Source: Gloeobacter violaceus PCC 7421
GTDB lineage: Bacteria; Cyanobacteriota; Cyanobacteriia; Gloeobacterales; Gloeobacteraceae
NCBI RefSeq assembly: GCF_000011385.1
Contig: NC_005125.1
Coordinates: forward strand, 3,906,001-3,970,000
DNA length: 64,000 nt
Direction of reading: 5' to 3'
In this document: positions 6,671 to 55,267 of the stretch, piece after piece
Layout of the letters: each line of letters begins with the position of its first letter
Position numbering within the stretch: position 1 is the first letter of the stretch
The notes under the pieces: generated by a model
The model's input: the letters and a program-made list of their open reading frames with translations, nothing else
Databases searched by the model: none
Told to the model about the DNA's origin: nothing
Made by a program: the position numbers and the translations under genes

Positions 6671-9277
6671 TTACTTGCTGGCGCTCACATCGGTGAAAGC
6701 AGCCGTCGTCAACTCGGCGCTGTCGTGGCTGGTGACGGCCAGACCCATGAACAGGTCCGTCGCCATCGGGATGCTCTGGGTGCCGATCCAGACCCAACTG
6801 CCGCCGTTGCTGGAGTAGTAGCCTTTGATCGTGTCGCCGGTGCGCACCAGTTTGAGCCAGTAGGGCGCTTTGTAGCCGGCGACGGTCTTGGAGCCGCTGT
6901 CTCCGCCGGTCTTGGTCCGGTACTGAAAGGTGATGCCTTTGCTCGGGGTGAGACCGACAAACACGTTGCGGGCACTGGAGGTAAAGCCGTCGCGGATCAT
7001 GATCCCCGCTTTGGCCCAGCTGTCGGTGTTGCCCAGGCTCGAAACGCGCGCCACCAATTGCCCATCGCCCGAGATGGGCTGGTAGACATACATAAAGCCG
7101 TCGGCATCGCCCCAGATGTCCGCCCCGGCGGCTTTGATCGTGAAGGTGTCGCTATCGGGGTTGAACGCCGCATTGCCGGTCAGGCCGACATTGCCGATGT
7201 CTTTAAGTTGCCAGGGAGTCGGCAGCGACACGGTGACACCCACCGCGGCGGAGGTAAACACGGCCCCCCGGTTGTCCGTGGCCACCGCCGCAATCGAATA
7301 CTTGCCCGCCGCCATGCCCTTCCAGCTGAAGTAGTAAGGCGATGTGGTGTCCTGGCCGAGTTTGACGCCGCCGCTGAAAAACTCGACTTGGCTGATTGTG
7401 CCGTCGCTGTCGTCGGCTTCGGCGTGGAGGCTGACCGTCGCGGGAGCCGTTAGCTGGGCGCCGTCCTCCGGATCGACCATATTCGCCGTCGGCGCAGTGT
7501 TGGGTGAGCCGACGCTCAGATCGATTGCACTGGAGGTGATTGTGGCCCCAGTGCTGCTGATCGCCTTTGCCGTCAACGAGTAGCTGCCCGACGGGGGCTT
7601 GACCCAGGTGTAGAAGTAGGGGCTTGCCGAGTCGGAACCGAGTTTGGTGGAACCTTGATAAAATTCCACCTTGCTGATGCTGTCGGAACTGTGGGCGGCC
7701 ACCGCCTGCAGCTTCGCATCCGAACCGCCGGCCACGAACGCCCCGTCGAGGGGTTGTACCAGGTACACCGACAACCCCGAAGGCTGGGAGACCGTGATCG
7801 TCCGGGAGGTGGAATCGGCGGTGACACCCTGGCTGTCGGTCACTTTGGCCTTCAGCGCATAGGTTCCAGCTTCTGCGAGCTTCCAGGTGGCGGAGTAGGG
7901 GCTGGCAAGGTCCTCGCCAATTTTGGTGCTGTCGCGGAAAAACTCGACTTTGCTCACAGTACCGTTATTGTCGCGGGCTTCAGCATTCAGGGTGACCGTG
8001 GCCGGTGCCGTCAATTTTGCGCCGGAGGCGGGCGCGGTCAGCTCGACGGTCGGCTTCTGGTTGGCCAGCCGGTTCTGGGCGTGCAGCGAAGCGCGCTCCT
8101 TTCTCAAGGCGCGCAGGTTGCCCAGTCCCCACGAATCGACATTCTGAAAGCGGGTCTGAAAAAAGGCCAGCGGCGCCCAGACGCGCTCGTCGAGGCTCGT
8201 GTCCTCGAAGCTTTCCGAAGCATCTGTCTCATTTTCCAGACAGACGATATAGGAGTTGAATTCATCGCGCAAGGCCTCTTCGATGTCGTACCAGGTACCC
8301 AGGACACCGGCCAGCAGATTCGGATCCCGGGTGGTGTTGTAGATGTTCCAGTCGACGTTGCCCCCCATGTGCCCCGCGTGGGCGATCACCGCGAGCGCGC
8401 CGAAGCTGTGCATCACCGTTTGCACACCGTGAATACCGTCGCGGCTTGCCAGTTCAGAGGTCAGTCCCGGGCGTTCGGGAAAGTCGCACCCGGCCAGCGG
8501 AGCGTAGTTCATCTGCCGGTAATAATCTTTCAACCCCCCACTCGCATGCGAATAGTACGACTCGAAGCGCGAACGGTCCTGCAGCACCAGGGCAATCACG
8601 TGCGCCTGGGCCACTGCACTCGCCCCCCGGTTGTGCTCCCGACCAAAATCGCGACCCGACCACAGCTGGTCCGCCAATCCCCGCAACCATGTGTCGATCG
8701 CCTCGCGCTCGGAAGTGCTCAGCTCGTCGCGCACCGCATCATAAGAAGGCAGAGCGCCAAATATCCAGAAGCGCAGGGCGATGTCCCCCTCGTACCAGCC
8801 CGGTTGGTAGGACTGGGTATAATCGCAGCCGCCGGCGACGAACTGGCGCGTGACACCGTCGAAGTTGTCCTGCCAGAGGTCGATCGGTCCGGCTTCGAGG
8901 ATGGCTTTCCAGTTGTCGGCGATCCGCTCGCGGTAGGCGTCCAGTTCGCTGTTGTCGGCACCGCCGTATTTGCCCCATTTGAGGGCGAGGTAGGTGGCTG
9001 AGAGCATTTCCTGGGCGGCGGCCATCTGCTGCACCCACGGCGAACGGGTATCCAGGCAGGTCTTAGGTTCACTCAGACCGTTGAGATAGTCGTTGTCCAC
9101 TTCGCTTTTAATCGCGCTGAAACTCGCCGCTTTGTAGAGCAGTTCGGCCTCGGTGGGTGAAAGAAACACCCACCAGTTGCGAGCGGCCGCAGCCGGGCTT
9201 ACCAGAAAAAAAGACAACACAAGTACAATGAATCCGCCCGCGGCCAGACGCCCGGCCCGCGGCTGAAATGTCGGCAT
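6671..9277 (-). CDS. secreted modular alginate-lyase-like protein with three Ig-like repeats and a C-terminal lectin-like domain
   Basis: An 868-aa exported protein. A signal peptide (about 1-32, ending PAAAA) is followed by an alpha/alpha-toroid lyase-like domain (about 33-390, with REHNRGAS). Three Ig-like repeats follow at about 400-490, 500-590 and 595-685, each with a KVEFF/QVEFF-type strand and GS..SPY..W motif typical of Big_9/Big_17 modules. The last part (about 690-868) resembles DUF1349/concanavalin-like lectin domains (KAGIMIRDG, GITFQYRTKTGG, YWLKLVRTGDTIKGYYSSNGG). The build suggests a polysaccharide lyase held on its glycan at the cell surface. Its toroid shares a perfectly identical 587-bp tract with the neighbour. 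Confidence 0.8.
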   Translation of the reverse strand: MPTFQPRAGRLAAGGFIVLVLSFFLVSPAAAARNWWVFLSPTEAELLYKAASFSAIKSEVDNDYLNGLSEPKTCLDTRSPWVQQMAAAQEMLSATYLALKWGKYGGADNSELDAYRERIADNWKAILEAGPIDLWQDNFDGVTRQFVAGGCDYTQSYQPGWYEGDIALRFWIFGALPSYDAVRDELSTSEREAIDTWLRGLADQLWSGRDFGREHNRGASAVAQAHVIALVLQDRSRFESYYSHASGGLKDYYRQMNYAPLAGCDFPERPGLTSELASRDGIHGVQTVMHSFGALAVIAHAGHMGGNVDWNIYNTTRDPNLLAGVLGTWYDIEEALRDEFNSYIVCLENETDASESFEDTSLDERVWAPLAFFQTRFQNVDSWGLGNLRALRKERASLHAQNRLANQKPTVELTAPASGAKLTAPATVTLNAEARDNNGTVSKVEFFRDSTKIGEDLASPYSATWKLAEAGTYALKAKVTDSQGVTADSTSRTITVSQPSGLSVYLVQPLDGAFVAGGSDAKLQAVAAHSSDSISKVEFYQGSTKLGSDSASPYFYTWVKPPSGSYSLTAKAISSTGATITSSAIDLSVGSPNTAPTANMVDPEDGAQLTAPATVSLHAEADDSDGTISQVEFFSGGVKLGQDTTSPYYFSWKGMAAGKYSIAAVATDNRGAVFTSAAVGVTVSLPTPWQLKDIGNVGLTGNAAFNPDSDTFTIKAAGADIWGDADGFMYVYQPISGDGQLVARVSSLGNTDSWAKAGIMIRDGFTSSARNVFVGLTPSKGITFQYRTKTGGDSGSKTVAGYKAPYWLKLVRTGDTIKGYYSSNGGSWVWIGTQSIPMATDLFMGLAVTSHDSAELTTAAFTDVSASK
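8460..9046. repeat. perfect 587-bp direct repeat, copy 2
   Basis: Identical to 5772-6358, in the same orientation and reading frame, inside the toroid domain of the long paralog. Sharp edges against diverged flanks point to gene conversion rather than a recent whole-gene duplication. Confidence 0.95.
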
Positions 9278-50253: not shown

Positions 50254-50267
50254 AATAAGAACTTATT
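50254..50267. promoter_or_regulatory. inverted repeat upstream of the PFL-like gene
   Basis: AATAAG-AA-CTTATT lies in an unusually AT-rich stretch about 55 bases before ATG 50323 and about 100 bases from the divergent ictB-like gene. It is a candidate operator for one or both genes. Confidence 0.4.
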
Positions 50268-50322
50268 CAAACCGATTTCAAATTTCTTCAAATTACGTTG
50301 GGAAGCCGGTCGCTTCGGGGCG

Positions 50323-51546
50323 ATGTTCTCGATACTGGGGGCATCGGTTGCGCTGGTTCCTACGGTGTCGAGAGCTGTGCCCAAACCTATACCCGCCGAT
50401 CCCTGGCAGGGCTTCCGACCAGGCAACTGGCAGGTGCGCACCGATGTCGAAAATTTTATTGCCGCCAACTGCGACCCCTACCTGGGCGACGACAGCGATT
50501 TGACCGGTCCGACCGAGCGCACCCAGGCGCTCTGGGTGCAGGCGCAGATGCTTCAGCAGGCGGCGCGGGCCACCGCCCGGCGCAGTGCCGGTCCAGGCGG
50601 AACCCCGGCAGGCGCGTTCGGCGCCGACTACCTCGATCGGCGCGAAGAACTGATCTATGGCCTGATCGATCCGCTCGATGTCGAGCAGCTGCCGGTGGGG
50701 AGCGATTGTCGGCAGTTGGCCCTGTACGGGTCGGAGCGATTGCGCCGATTGGGCATGCAGTTGGGGGCCGTCGAGACGGTCGAAGCGCTCGCCGGTTGCT
50801 ACGGCCTCGATATCGGCAGACCGGCGGCCACCGCCCAGCAGGCTATCCAGTGGACGTATCTGGCGCTGTTGGCCACCCGCGATCCGCTTTTTGGCCGGCG
50901 CCGTAGCGTCACTGGTCTCGACACGTTTTTTGATGTTTACTTCCAGCGCGACCTCGCTCGCGGTTTGTTGGTCGAAGAAGAAGCCCAGGAACTGGTAGAC
51001 GACCTGATGATCAAGTTGCGGTTGCCCCAGCCGACGCTGAGCGAACTGTACCTGCCCCTGGCTGCGGGCGTAGACCCAGAAGGCAGGCCGCTGGTCACCC
51101 GCACCGACTTTCGATTCGTCAACACCTGTTACAACCTGGGACCGGCCGCCGAACCGCACCTGCTGGTGCTCTGGTCGGCGGCCTTGAGCGGGGCGTTCCG
51201 GCGCTTCTGCGGCGAGGTGACCATCGACACCAGTTCGCTGCGCTACGCCAGAGCACTACCGCTGCCGCAGACGGGTCTGGCCCACACTTTCAGTCCCGAC
51301 GCTTTGGGCGCCACCCGCACCGAGCAAGTCGAGAACCTGGGCCTTTGGCTCGACGGGCAACCGGAAGGCGATCACCTGGGAATCAACGTCTTTGGCCGTG
51401 AAGCATTGCTTTCGACCCTTACCCGTCCCAACAAGTTTGCCCATCTGACCGTGCAACTTGCCGAAGGGGCGGTAGATCTGCACAGCCTCAGCCCGCTCGG
51501 ACGGCGCCAGGTACTTCTACAATTGCTGGGAAGCTTCGAAAGGTAA
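50323..51546 (+). CDS. internally deleted pyruvate formate-lyase homolog (probable pseudoenzyme)
   Basis: A 407-aa protein clearly homologous to PflB (about 760 aa). FRPGNWQVRTDVENFIAANC with GDDSDLTGPTERTQALW matches the PFL N-terminus; RRSVTGLDTFFDVYFQRDL, TRTDFRFVNTCYNLGP and VTIDTSSLRY match the middle; GDHLGINVFGREALLSTL matches the end. After TIDTSSLRYAR the chain jumps to HTFSPDALG, skipping about 230 residues with the Cys418-Cys419 pair. The radical loop reads VQLAEGAVDLHSL where PFL has RVSGYAVRFNSL, so Gly734 is Glu. The N-terminus has a hydrophobic stretch that could be a leader. Neither catalysis nor radical storage seems possible. Confidence 0.85.
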   Translation: MFSILGASVALVPTVSRAVPKPIPADPWQGFRPGNWQVRTDVENFIAANCDPYLGDDSDLTGPTERTQALWVQAQMLQQAARATARRSAGPGGTPAGAFGADYLDRREELIYGLIDPLDVEQLPVGSDCRQLALYGSERLRRLGMQLGAVETVEALAGCYGLDIGRPAATAQQAIQWTYLALLATRDPLFGRRRSVTGLDTFFDVYFQRDLARGLLVEEEAQELVDDLMIKLRLPQPTLSELYLPLAAGVDPEGRPLVTRTDFRFVNTCYNLGPAAEPHLLVLWSAALSGAFRRFCGEVTIDTSSLRYARALPLPQTGLAHTFSPDALGATRTEQVENLGLWLDGQPEGDHLGINVFGREALLSTLTRPNKFAHLTVQLAEGAVDLHSLSPLGRRQVLLQLLGSFER

Positions 51547-51551
51547 GGCGC

Positions 51552-52691
51552 GTGGATCCAACGCTGGCGGTCGGGCTGATCAGCGGCACTTCGCTAGACG
51601 GCATGGACGGGGCACTGGTAGAAATTGCAGGCAGCGCGCAGCAGCCGGCGGTAACAACCCTTGCCACGCTCGCCTTACCTTACCCGGCAGGGCTGCGCGG
51701 GCGGCTGTTGCATCTGGCGGAGGGCAAACCCGTTCCAGTGGCCGAGGTGAGTGCGCTGCACCGCGATGTCGCCCTCGCCTTTGCGGACTGCGCCCTGCAA
51801 CTTATCGAGCAGGCGGGCTTTCGCTGCGGGCAGATCGCCTGCATCGGCTCCCATGGCCAGACCGTTCATCACCAGCCCCCGGCCGACAACGCAGCGGGAC
51901 ACACGTTGCAGTTGGGCGACGGCGCCTGGATCGCCGAGCGCACCGGGGTGACGACCGTGGGCAACTTTCGCACCCGCGACATGGCGGCGGGTGGCCAGGG
52001 TGCCCCACTGGTGCCGATCCTCGACTATTTGCTGTTGCGCGACGCCCGGCGCGACCGCTGCATCCAGAATCTGGGCGGTATTGCCAATGTCACCTACTTG
52101 CGCGCCGGGGGCGGCCCTGAGGAAGTGATCGCCTTCGACACCGGCCCGGCCAATCTGCTCATCGACGGCACCGTGCAGATTGCCCTGGGCGAACCCTTCG
52201 ACCGGGGCGGCAGCCTGGCGCTGCAAGGCACGGTCGACCGGGACTGCCTGGAGCGGTGGCTGGCCGATCCGTACTTTCGCCGGCCGCCCCCCAAATCGAC
52301 CGGCCGCGAGTACTTCGGCTACGCGCGCGCCCGGCGGCTGGCCGAGGAGAGCGCTCATCTGCCGGTGGCCGACCGGGTGGCGACGGTGAGCGAACTGACC
52401 GTGCGCTCGATCGAACGGGCCTACCGCGATTTTTTGCCCCGGCTTCCCGATGAGGTGTTCCTGTGCGGGGGCGGGGCACGCAACGGCTATATCCGCGCGC
52501 GCCTCGGGCGATTGCTCGCCCCGGCGCGCGTCGCCGTCAGCGACGAAGCCGGCATCGATCCGGACTTCAAAGAGGCGATGGCCTTTGCGCTGCTCGCCTG
52601 GTTACGCTGTACCGGGGCGCCGGGGAATTTGCCCGCGGTGACCGGGGCCGGGCGGGCGGTTCCCCTGGGCGACGTGCATCCCGCCGGGTAA
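51552..52691 (+). CDS. anmK: anhydro-N-acetylmuramic acid kinase
   Basis: A 379-aa kinase that opens and phosphorylates 1,6-anhydroMurNAc during peptidoglycan recycling. The family begins with VGLISGTSLDGMDGALVEI (ATP site); CIGSHGQTVHHQP, TVGNFRTRDMAAGGQGAPLVP, NLGGIANVTYL, FDTGPANLLID and FLCGGGARNGYI follow. The GTG start lies 5 bases after the PFL-like stop, so the two genes are likely cotranscribed. Length is normal. Confidence 0.95.
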   Translation: MDPTLAVGLISGTSLDGMDGALVEIAGSAQQPAVTTLATLALPYPAGLRGRLLHLAEGKPVPVAEVSALHRDVALAFADCALQLIEQAGFRCGQIACIGSHGQTVHHQPPADNAAGHTLQLGDGAWIAERTGVTTVGNFRTRDMAAGGQGAPLVPILDYLLLRDARRDRCIQNLGGIANVTYLRAGGGPEEVIAFDTGPANLLIDGTVQIALGEPFDRGGSLALQGTVDRDCLERWLADPYFRRPPPKSTGREYFGYARARRLAEESAHLPVADRVATVSELTVRSIERAYRDFLPRLPDEVFLCGGGARNGYIRARLGRLLAPARVAVSDEAGIDPDFKEAMAFALLAWLRCTGAPGNLPAVTGAGRAVPLGDVHPAG

Positions 52692-52716
52692 AGTATCAAG
52701 TAAAGGATTGTGGTCT

Positions 52717-53304
52717 ATGGGTCGCCACCAGGTTCCCTATGTTCTAGTTACCGAAACGGCCCAGCTGTCGGAACTGGTCGATCGCTGGCAGACCCGCAAA
52801 GTCCTCGCCGTCGACACCGAAACGGCCCACTGGCACCAGGTGAGTACCGGCAAGAACCGCGTATCGCTGCTGCAGGTCTGGGACGGGACGAGCGAGGCGG
52901 TCTCGGTGATCGATTGCTTCGCGGTGGACCTCACAGCCTTTGTCGAGAAGACCATGCGCAACTGGGAAATTGTCAAGCTCATCCACAACGCTCCCTACGA
53001 CCTGGCCTACCTGGGAGGAGCCGCCCAAGCGCGCTCGGTGGTCTGCACGCTGCAGATGGCGCGGTCGATCCCCACATCCAGACGCGGTGCCCTCGAGCGC
53101 AATTCCCTCAAAGCCCTGAGCGCACACTTTTTGGGCATCGAACTGGACAAGCGCTACCAGGCGAGCAACTGGGCCCTCAGGCCGCTCACGGCCGAACAGC
53201 TCGATTACGCCGCCCTCGACCCGTGGGTGACCTTTCACATCTGGGAGCACATGCGGGCGCTGGTGGAGCCTGAGAACGAAGGCTTCGAGGGGTTGCTGGT
53301 GTGA
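52717..53304 (+). CDS. RNase D-like 3'-5' exonuclease (DEDDy)
   Basis: A 195-aa exonuclease domain without the HRDC domain of full RNase D. The catalytic residues are visible: Asp33 and Glu35 in VDTETAHW, Asp95 in HNAPYDLAYLG, Tyr164 and Asp168 in QLDYAALDPW. It probably trims RNA 3' ends, though related domains act on DNA. An in-frame GTG 9 bases upstream is the alternative start. The stop overlaps the chaperonin start (GTGA at 53301-53304), so the two are translationally coupled. Confidence 0.87.
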   Translation: MGRHQVPYVLVTETAQLSELVDRWQTRKVLAVDTETAHWHQVSTGKNRVSLLQVWDGTSEAVSVIDCFAVDLTAFVEKTMRNWEIVKLIHNAPYDLAYLGGAAQARSVVCTLQMARSIPTSRRGALERNSLKALSAHFLGIELDKRYQASNWALRPLTAEQLDYAALDPWVTFHIWEHMRALVEPENEGFEGLLV

Positions 53305-54818
53305 CCGCCGAGGGACACCTGAAGGTGCTGCGCACCAATATTGCCGCCGTGCGGGCGATCGTCGAGACCGTGGCGGGCACCCTGGGGCCGAAGGGCCTCG
53401 ACGTGTTGCTGGTGGACGATGCGGGCCGCATGACCCTCACCAACGACGGCGTCGAAATCCTCGGGCAGCTCGACGCCCAGCATCCGGCCGCCCGCCTGGT
53501 CATCCAGGTGGCCGAGGCCCAGGACCGCAGCGTCGGCGACGGCACCACCACCGCCACGGTCCTGGCTGGGGCGCTGCTCGATGCTTGCCTGGAGCGCGTC
53601 GAGCAGGGCATCGCCATCAATGCGCTGATCGCGGGTCTGCGCGCCGGGGTGCAAGCGGCCCTCGACGCTCTGCGCAGCGCCGCTGTGCCTGTCACGGACC
53701 TGGCCGATCCGCGGGTGCCGGCTGTCACCCGCATCGCCGCGCGCGGCGACGAGGCCATTGCCCGGATCGTCTGGGAGGCGGCGAACCACATCGGCTTCGA
53801 GCGCCTGCGCGCCGGGCGCGTGCGCCTCGGCGAACTGGTCAGCTCCCGCGTGGGCGAATCCCACCGCTGGATCGAAGGCCTGGTCCTTGCCAAGCAGCCG
53901 CTGCAGTTGCCGCCGGAGGGTTTTTCCCGGACTGGGGGCGTGCTGGTACTTTCTGACCCCTTCGAATCCGAGAGCTTCGATGCCCAGGTGCTCGCCACCG
54001 AGGGGGGGTTTGCCCGCTACCTCGAAGCCCAGGAGCAGTTGCGCCGCCGGGTGCAGGTCCTCGTCGAGGCTGGGGTGGTGCTGTTGGTGTGCGAAAAGAG
54101 CATTTCCCCAACGGCCGAACCGCTCTTGGCCGAGGCGGGGATCGTGGCCCTGCAGCGAATCCTGCGCCGCGACAGCGAGCGGACGGCCGGCTTCAGCGGC
54201 GCGGTGCCGGTGCGCCAGGGCCAGCTGGCCCGGGGGGCGACCGCCCTGGCCCCGGTATTGGGCAAGGCGACGGTGCGCTACGAACGCCCTTCCCAGAAGC
54301 TCGTCCTCAGCGCCGGGGGTGGGGAGCCCCTGGCGGCGATGATCGTCGGTGCGGTGAGCGCCGAGGTGGCCGCCGAACTGGAGCGCGTCGCCGTCGACGC
54401 CTGCAGCGCGCTGCAGGCCGCCCTCACCTCGGGGGTGGTGACGGGCGGCGGGGTGGCGGAACTGGCGAGCCGCCGGGCGGTGAGCGCCCTGGCTGCGCGC
54501 ACCGAGGGGGTGGTGCGCTACGGCATCGAGGCGGTGGCCGCCGCCCTGCGCAGGCCCCTGGAGCAGATCGTGAGCAACAGTGGCTATTCGGCCCTCGAAA
54601 AAGTTGCCCAGTTGGAGGCGATGCACCAGCGCACCGCCAACCCGCACCTGGGCATCGACTGCGAGAACGGCGAGGTGGTCGATCTGTGGCAAGCCGGGGT
54701 GATCGACCCGCTGGCGGTCAAGACCTGCGCCCTCGAAGCGGCGGCCGAAATCGCCGAACGCATCCTGCGCATCCAGACCGTCGTGCGCCGCCGCGAAACT
54801 CCTCCCGGGGGCGCTTGA
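53301..54818 (+). CDS. archaeal-type (group II/III) chaperonin, TCP-1/cpn60 family
   Basis: A 505-aa chaperonin closer to thermosome/CCT than to GroEL. LGPKGLDVLLVDD (28-40), LTNDGVEILGQLD (47-58), HPAARLVIQVAEAQD and VGDGTTTATVLAG (78-90) follow the group II pattern. The apical region has a helical insertion (FARYLEAQEQLRRRVQVLVE), like a built-in lid. The ATPase end reads GGGVAELASR, and VVDLWQAGVIDPLAVKT closes it. There is no GGM tail. It starts in a GTGA overlap with the RNase D-like gene. Similar TCP-1/cpn60 proteins occur in some cyanobacteria; the client and partner are unknown. Confidence 0.88.
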   Translation: MTAEGHLKVLRTNIAAVRAIVETVAGTLGPKGLDVLLVDDAGRMTLTNDGVEILGQLDAQHPAARLVIQVAEAQDRSVGDGTTTATVLAGALLDACLERVEQGIAINALIAGLRAGVQAALDALRSAAVPVTDLADPRVPAVTRIAARGDEAIARIVWEAANHIGFERLRAGRVRLGELVSSRVGESHRWIEGLVLAKQPLQLPPEGFSRTGGVLVLSDPFESESFDAQVLATEGGFARYLEAQEQLRRRVQVLVEAGVVLLVCEKSISPTAEPLLAEAGIVALQRILRRDSERTAGFSGAVPVRQGQLARGATALAPVLGKATVRYERPSQKLVLSAGGGEPLAAMIVGAVSAEVAAELERVAVDACSALQAALTSGVVTGGGVAELASRRAVSALAARTEGVVRYGIEAVAAALRRPLEQIVSNSGYSALEKVAQLEAMHQRTANPHLGIDCENGEVVDLWQAGVIDPLAVKTCALEAAAEIAERILRIQTVVRRRETPPGGA

Positions 54819-54877: not shown

Positions 54878-55267
54878 ATGTCGCGGCTCAACCCGGTGCA
54901 AGTGGCGGCACTTGTCACCCTTCCAGTGCTGCTCGGCTGTGGAATGGCTCTCGCCCAACCCAAAGCGATCCGCAACGGCGAAGTGCGCGTCGGCAACAAG
55001 ACCCCCTACCCGGTGCGAGTGGTCGTGACCAAGGCGGACGGCTCGCTCGAAGGCGCTTTTTGGGATTTTGCCCCCGGCGAAGGGGGTACCGAGGGGATCC
55101 GTCTGGCCCTGGCCGACCGGCCGATTGTGCTGGGCGAAGGGGACGTGATCACCATCTTTACGGTGGACGGTTCGCGCCGCTACTGGGGGCCGAGCATCAT
55201 CGGCCGCACCAACGCCCCGTTCTGGGACGCCAAGCGCCGATTGTGGACCACGGTGCTCAGGCCCTAG
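54878..55267 (+). CDS. hypothetical secreted protein
   Basis: A 129-aa protein with a signal peptide (VAALVTLPVLLGCGMALAQ); the LLGCG could also be read as a lipobox, though the position favours ordinary cleavage after ALA. The mature part is a beta-rich domain (EVRVGNKTPYPVRVVVTKAD, AFWDFAPGEGG, YWGPSIIGRTN) with no family I recognise. It ends one base before the stop of the convergent HExxH gene. Confidence 0.62.
   Translation: MSRLNPVQVAALVTLPVLLGCGMALAQPKAIRNGEVRVGNKTPYPVRVVVTKADGSLEGAFWDFAPGEGGTEGIRLALADRPIVLGEGDVITIFTVDGSRRYWGPSIIGRTNAPFWDAKRRLWTTVLRP

Follow-up and report, generated by a model that had tools for sequence, protein, structure and literature searches.

Group III chaperonins have been described chiefly from Firmicutes, where their genes lie nearly always within the dnaK operon (one exception has been reported; PMC5635000), and a partnership with DnaK has been proposed on the strength of this location. 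They are marked by the absence of the nucleotide-sensing loop (PMC5635000). Two structures serve for comparison. The first is that of Ch-CPN from Carboxydothermus hydrogenoformans (PDB 5x9u and 5x9v; PMC5635000). The second is that of the reconstructed group III ancestor ACIII (PDB 9rwq; PMC12696368), a laboratory reconstruction rather than a natural protein, among whose inputs cyanobacterial sequences may be found. The molecule name of entry 9rwq reads 'Ancestral Group II Chaperonin (ACII)' whereas its title gives ACIII; the sequence behaves as group III. The chaperonin class discussed here is already known and, judged from the dating of the group III ancestor, the 2025 data set probably had cyanobacterial members (PMC12696368).

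We have analyzed a chaperonin gene of Gloeobacter violaceus PCC 7421 and its neighbors, within a window of 64,000 nucleotides (the whole stretch of DNA under study) from a genome that forms a single contig of 4,659,019 bases. The features are collected in Table 1. The exonuclease and chaperonin reading frames lie where the first-pass annotation had placed them, overlapping through a common GTGA. Within this, the TGA at 53302-53304 ends the exonuclease, and the GTG at 53301 is the sole in-frame start for the chaperonin downstream of the preceding stop. The exonuclease begins with ATG, an alternative TTG being possible at 52708. On the other side, 59 nt separate the chaperonin stop from the downstream open reading frame.

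Table 1. Features of the chaperonin locus, in positions of the window
Feature	Position	Strand	Details
anmK, anhydro-N-acetylmuramic acid kinase	51552-52691	+	PF03702, E 5e-109; not part of the core
DEDDy 3'-5' exonuclease gene	52717-53304	+	195 aa; PF01612, E 2.7e-27
Candidate SD-like GAGGGG	53287-53292	+	within the exonuclease gene, 8 nt ahead of the chaperonin start
GTGA stop/start overlap	53301-53304	+	exonuclease TGA with chaperonin GTG; from the sequence
Group III chaperonin gene	53301-54818	+	505 aa; PF00118 (Cpn60/TCP-1), E 5e-115
Exported beta-sandwich protein gene	54878-55267	+	129 aa; signal-peptide-like start

Its sequence and modeled structure identify the chaperonin as a bacterial member of group III, and not as GroEL. 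It had been assigned to the group II/III type from the motifs LGPKGLD, NDGVEIL and GDGTTT. These are present and are conserved across nine homologues, with LGPEGLD and NDGIEIL as the only variants, and the assignment can be narrowed to group III. The proteins of the order Gloeobacterales are 36-41% identical to Ch-CPN over their length, compared with 25-32% for group II chaperonins and 24-28% for GroEL, and like Ch-CPN they retain GDGTTT and the catalytic Asp residues. Among PDB sequences the highest-scoring match is ACIII (532 bits); Ch-CPN follows at 318 bits, and no natural thermosome exceeds 194 bits. The alignment shows that the six-residue nucleotide-sensing loop of thermosomes is missing in all nine Gloeobacterales proteins as in Ch-CPN, while it is present in every group II protein aligned. 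A three-residue deletion in the lid region is likewise common to all nine and Ch-CPN, and the Arg of the AARG/AGRG motif is aligned between them. In all, 31 alignment columns join the Gloeobacterales proteins with Ch-CPN against group II, with 9 and 12 columns for the two alternatives.

The predicted structure (pLDDT 79, low near residues 26-59) is in agreement. With Foldseek, group III crystal structures match best; Ch-CPN is the best natural structural match, with correspondence of fold over the whole chain. With VIA-align the best matches are ACIII and the closed structures of Ch-CPN, ACIII being at the top with Z 40.3 over 325 residues. In a maximum-likelihood tree the nine Gloeobacterales chaperonins form one clade (support 99/99), split from GroEL at 100/100 and from group II at 100/99. 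The host genome has two separate GroEL genes elsewhere and, together with the split in the tree, these rule out a GroEL (group I) paralogue.

Could the protein instead be a group II thermosome, taken directly from archaea? A topology that joins the Gloeobacterales proteins to group II and leaves Ch-CPN outside is not rejected (AU p 0.083), in a tree where Ch-CPN is the sole natural group III reference and a joint clade with the Gloeobacterales proteins is thus left open. Against this stand the missing loop that all aligned group II proteins possess, and the closer approach of Ch-CPN in identity, in signature columns and in fold. We give hardly any credence to a thermosome origin, and treat the protein as group III in what follows.

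The chaperonin is present in all nine Gloeobacterales genomes, which span six genera and three families. Using thresholds placed far away from GroEL scores, it was absent from the 379 other genomes sampled in the class, and from 385 others in the phylum sample. It is stably carried by a single order rather than recently gained by a strain. A single scan of genome contigs for group III relatives yielded only Aphanocapsa lilacina, whose locus is near-identical; a search of plasmids returned haloarchaeal thermosomes, and one of IMG/VR returned chaperonins at no more than 34% identity. Many of the IMG/VR contigs (L068-L110) encode full-length chaperonins with 24-31% identity to Ch-CPN, and the best of these viral proteins are closer to group II/III than to GroEL.

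The Gloeobacterales gene differs from Ch-CPN in having a cyanobacterial host and other neighbor genes, and from the published group III genes in lying outside the dnaK operon, which is the usual location of group III but not a structural criterion for it. In none of the nine genomes does a DnaK gene adjoin the chaperonin. The distance is approximately 525 kb in G000, and the closest case is approximately 10 kb in G072; the gene concerned in G072 (contig C114, 33000-34754) is a third DnaK gene, and shares a contig with the chaperonin, downstream of which it lies. A group III chaperonin that is divergent and intact, and that lies apart from dnaK in an entire cyanobacterial order, shows that linkage to this operon can be dispensed with. 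These proteins also bring a second bacterial branch to bear on the disputed origin of group III, as an ancient lineage or as a gene transferred from archaea. In the open literature, a coverage outside which the founding group III paper falls, we found no description of the distribution in Gloeobacterales, no account of a non-dnaK location there, and none of the conserved exported neighbor discussed below.

The upstream gene encodes a stand-alone DEDDy 3'-5' exonuclease, in which D33, E35, D95, Y164 and D168 of exo motifs I-III are kept. The first-pass annotation called it RNase D-like; this stands as regards the DEDDy superfamily, but the name is loose as the C-terminal part of RNase D is lacking. 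The protein is not RNase D itself: it consists of the catalytic domain only, with the C-terminal HRDC domain(s) missing, and scores 68.5 bits with the NCBIfam rnd model against a cut-off of 299. NrnC/diDNase was rejected, forming a separate clade (99/96), with a distinct NrnC-type gene present in Gloeobacterales genomes. PolA was also rejected, the exonuclease standing apart from PolA domains in the tree, with a separate PolA-type domain in these genomes. The RNA-trimming role that had been proposed for the enzyme is possible but unproven.

The closest relatives of the exonuclease are cyanobacterial DEDDy proteins of about 310 or 870 aa, which form its sister clade (95/89) and have the same DEDDy motifs. 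Most of them bear long C-terminal extensions, whereas the Gloeobacterales protein is domain-only, and carries a short insertion that follows exo motif I. All the Gloeobacterales exonucleases, whether linked to the chaperonin or not, group together (99/98), and NrnC and PolA domains fall outside this clade. The gene was therefore inherited within the order, and then moved beside the chaperonin or left it.

How far does the pairing of exonuclease and chaperonin hold? The two genes overlap by 4 nt in all six Gloeobacteraceae genomes, from three genera (G000, G013, G061, G033, G072 and G104). The contig of G104 opens partway through the exonuclease gene, but the C-terminus of the protein (ATYRVWEHMRLLVEPED...) can still be read. 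The overlap reads GTGA in four genomes of the same genus and ATGA in the other two, and is kept down to about 63% protein identity although the flanking sequence has diverged. Clearly this is no oddity of a single strain. Synteny of the pair was found within this family and is missing beyond it, the pairing being absent from all three Gloeobacterales genomes outside the Gloeobacteraceae (G083, G094 and G047). A 4-nt overlap is ordinary in kind (by rough gene calls, one is possible in 3 of the 39 co-directional neighbor pairs in the window), but its preservation in six genomes is more than accident, and argues that the coupling matters for expression. The conclusion is that coupling of exonuclease and chaperonin is an operon arrangement at the level of the family. 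The anmK gene was considered as an equally tight partner and rejected; it is the upstream co-directional neighbor in five of the six Gloeobacteraceae, but is unlinked in G104, as it is in G083, G094 and G047.

The first-pass annotation had read the coupling as a sign that both proteins act on a common substrate, for instance an RNA-protein complex; in its fuller form this would make them a functional module coupled for stoichiometry. The constancy of the overlap in six genomes with diverged flanks is in its favor, as is the contrast with anmK. However, the exonuclease is retained elsewhere in G083 and G094 with other neighbors (a haem-dependent-demethylase-like gene in G083, a nearby HEAT-repeat gene in G094) and no such exonuclease was found in G047, a draft genome that is 94% complete. 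The chaperonin persists in all three, and this weakens the idea of a shared substrate. Overlaps of this kind are moreover common, and the role of the enzyme on RNA is putative. We consider a common-substrate module very unlikely.

Two observations concern the surroundings of the unlinked genes. In G094 the exonuclease gene (L030:6398-6976) overlaps the next gene, an 86-aa open reading frame at 6973-7233, by 4 nt, so the exonuclease is found ahead of different partner genes. The place of the exonuclease directly ahead of the chaperonin is taken, in the family to which G083 and G094 belong, by a DUF2949 gene, at gaps of 5 and 0 nt; the DUF2949 loci are at about 7000-7225 of L025, and upstream of the chaperonin on the reverse of L024.

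Downstream of the chaperonin the picture is different. A homologue of the exported protein gene directly follows the chaperonin in all nine Gloeobacterales genomes, and among the links of the cluster (PFL-like protein to anmK, anmK to exonuclease, exonuclease to chaperonin, chaperonin to beta protein) only the last is kept throughout. The chaperonin thus has its older and more widespread connection with the downstream exported protein rather than with the exonuclease. In G094, G083 and G047 the start of the beta-protein gene overlaps the chaperonin stop, through ATGA in the first two and GTGA in the third, and in the same three genomes the beta protein has two tandem domains. Gloeobacteraceae show no overlap here, the two genes being separated by about 60 nt.

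The exported protein matched no Pfam family. It is predicted to adopt a small beta-sandwich fold (pLDDT 80), and its N-terminus resembles an ordinary Sec signal. It is a clear member of a cyanobacterial family of exported or membrane-anchored proteins (alignment A1) with a domain of about 100 aa and the motif RVGN-T...WDFAPGEG...DGSRRYWGP. Members of this family are present in 192 of 291 genomes of the class, mostly in the absence of a chaperonin of this type, and its neighbors were varied across twelve inspected genomes; only in Gloeobacterales was it seen to adjoin a chaperonin. Kinship with the beta domain of pVHL is not claimed, as the scores of this best PDB match (Z 7.7, rmsd 3.2 over 84 residues, Foldseek E 3e-3) lie within the range where unrelated sandwiches meet.

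Might chaperonin and exported protein then be the true functional pair, with the exonuclease a late arrival that sets expression? The beta protein, or proteins that partner it, could be handled by the chaperonin ahead of export; alternatively, a single envelope process could employ both the chaperonin and the exported protein. Such a pair would account for the one link that survives across three families and six genera, and for the stop/start overlap in three genomes that lack the exonuclease coupling, two of which have the DUF2949 gene 0-5 nt ahead. It fits less well with a family found mostly where there is no such chaperonin, among varied neighbors, or with the gap in Gloeobacteraceae, and a Sec-like N-terminus would lead us to expect export in an unfolded state, with no passage through a closed chamber. 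A true pair of this kind is unlikely, yet the pairing is better supported by synteny than the shared-substrate idea. A more elaborate version, that the thylakoid-less Gloeobacterales use a DnaK-detached group III chaperonin and an exported beta-domain protein as a dedicated module, to which one family added the exonuclease ahead for control of expression, strikes us as unlikely. The order-wide pair is nonetheless the part worth following, and a constant neighbor provides a testable lead on the cellular role of the chaperonin.

Our preferred reading is that this is a group III folding chamber, coupled to an exonuclease at the level of one family, with independent activities for the two proteins; taken as a whole we regard this as probable. 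Most likely the chaperonin is a conventional chamber of its group that lies outside the dnaK operon, with its translation tied to whichever gene lies upstream. It would assemble as an ATP-driven double ring, closed by its built-in lid, and fold cytosolic proteins. In Gloeobacteraceae its gene forms part of a short co-directional cluster behind that of the stand-alone exonuclease, and ribosomes terminating at the exonuclease TGA may re-initiate on the overlapping GTG or ATG, such that chaperonin output would follow how strongly the upstream gene is transcribed and translated. The exonuclease would trim some nucleic-acid 3' end, and each of the two proteins most likely works without the other. 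Against independence counts the persistence of the overlap in three genera, which could stem from a functional tie. The link with the beta protein may arise through co-regulation or some functional tie.

As to heat-shock control, no CIRCE element was found in the window, and the region gave no match to sigma-70-type promoter or terminator patterns or to an Rfam family; these negative results say little. At the upstream end of the cluster, positions 50254-51543 encode a 430-aa protein that matches pyruvate formate-lyase (PF02901) in part only and has weak C-terminal similarity to GrcA; this PFL-like protein is found in just five of the nine genomes of the order.
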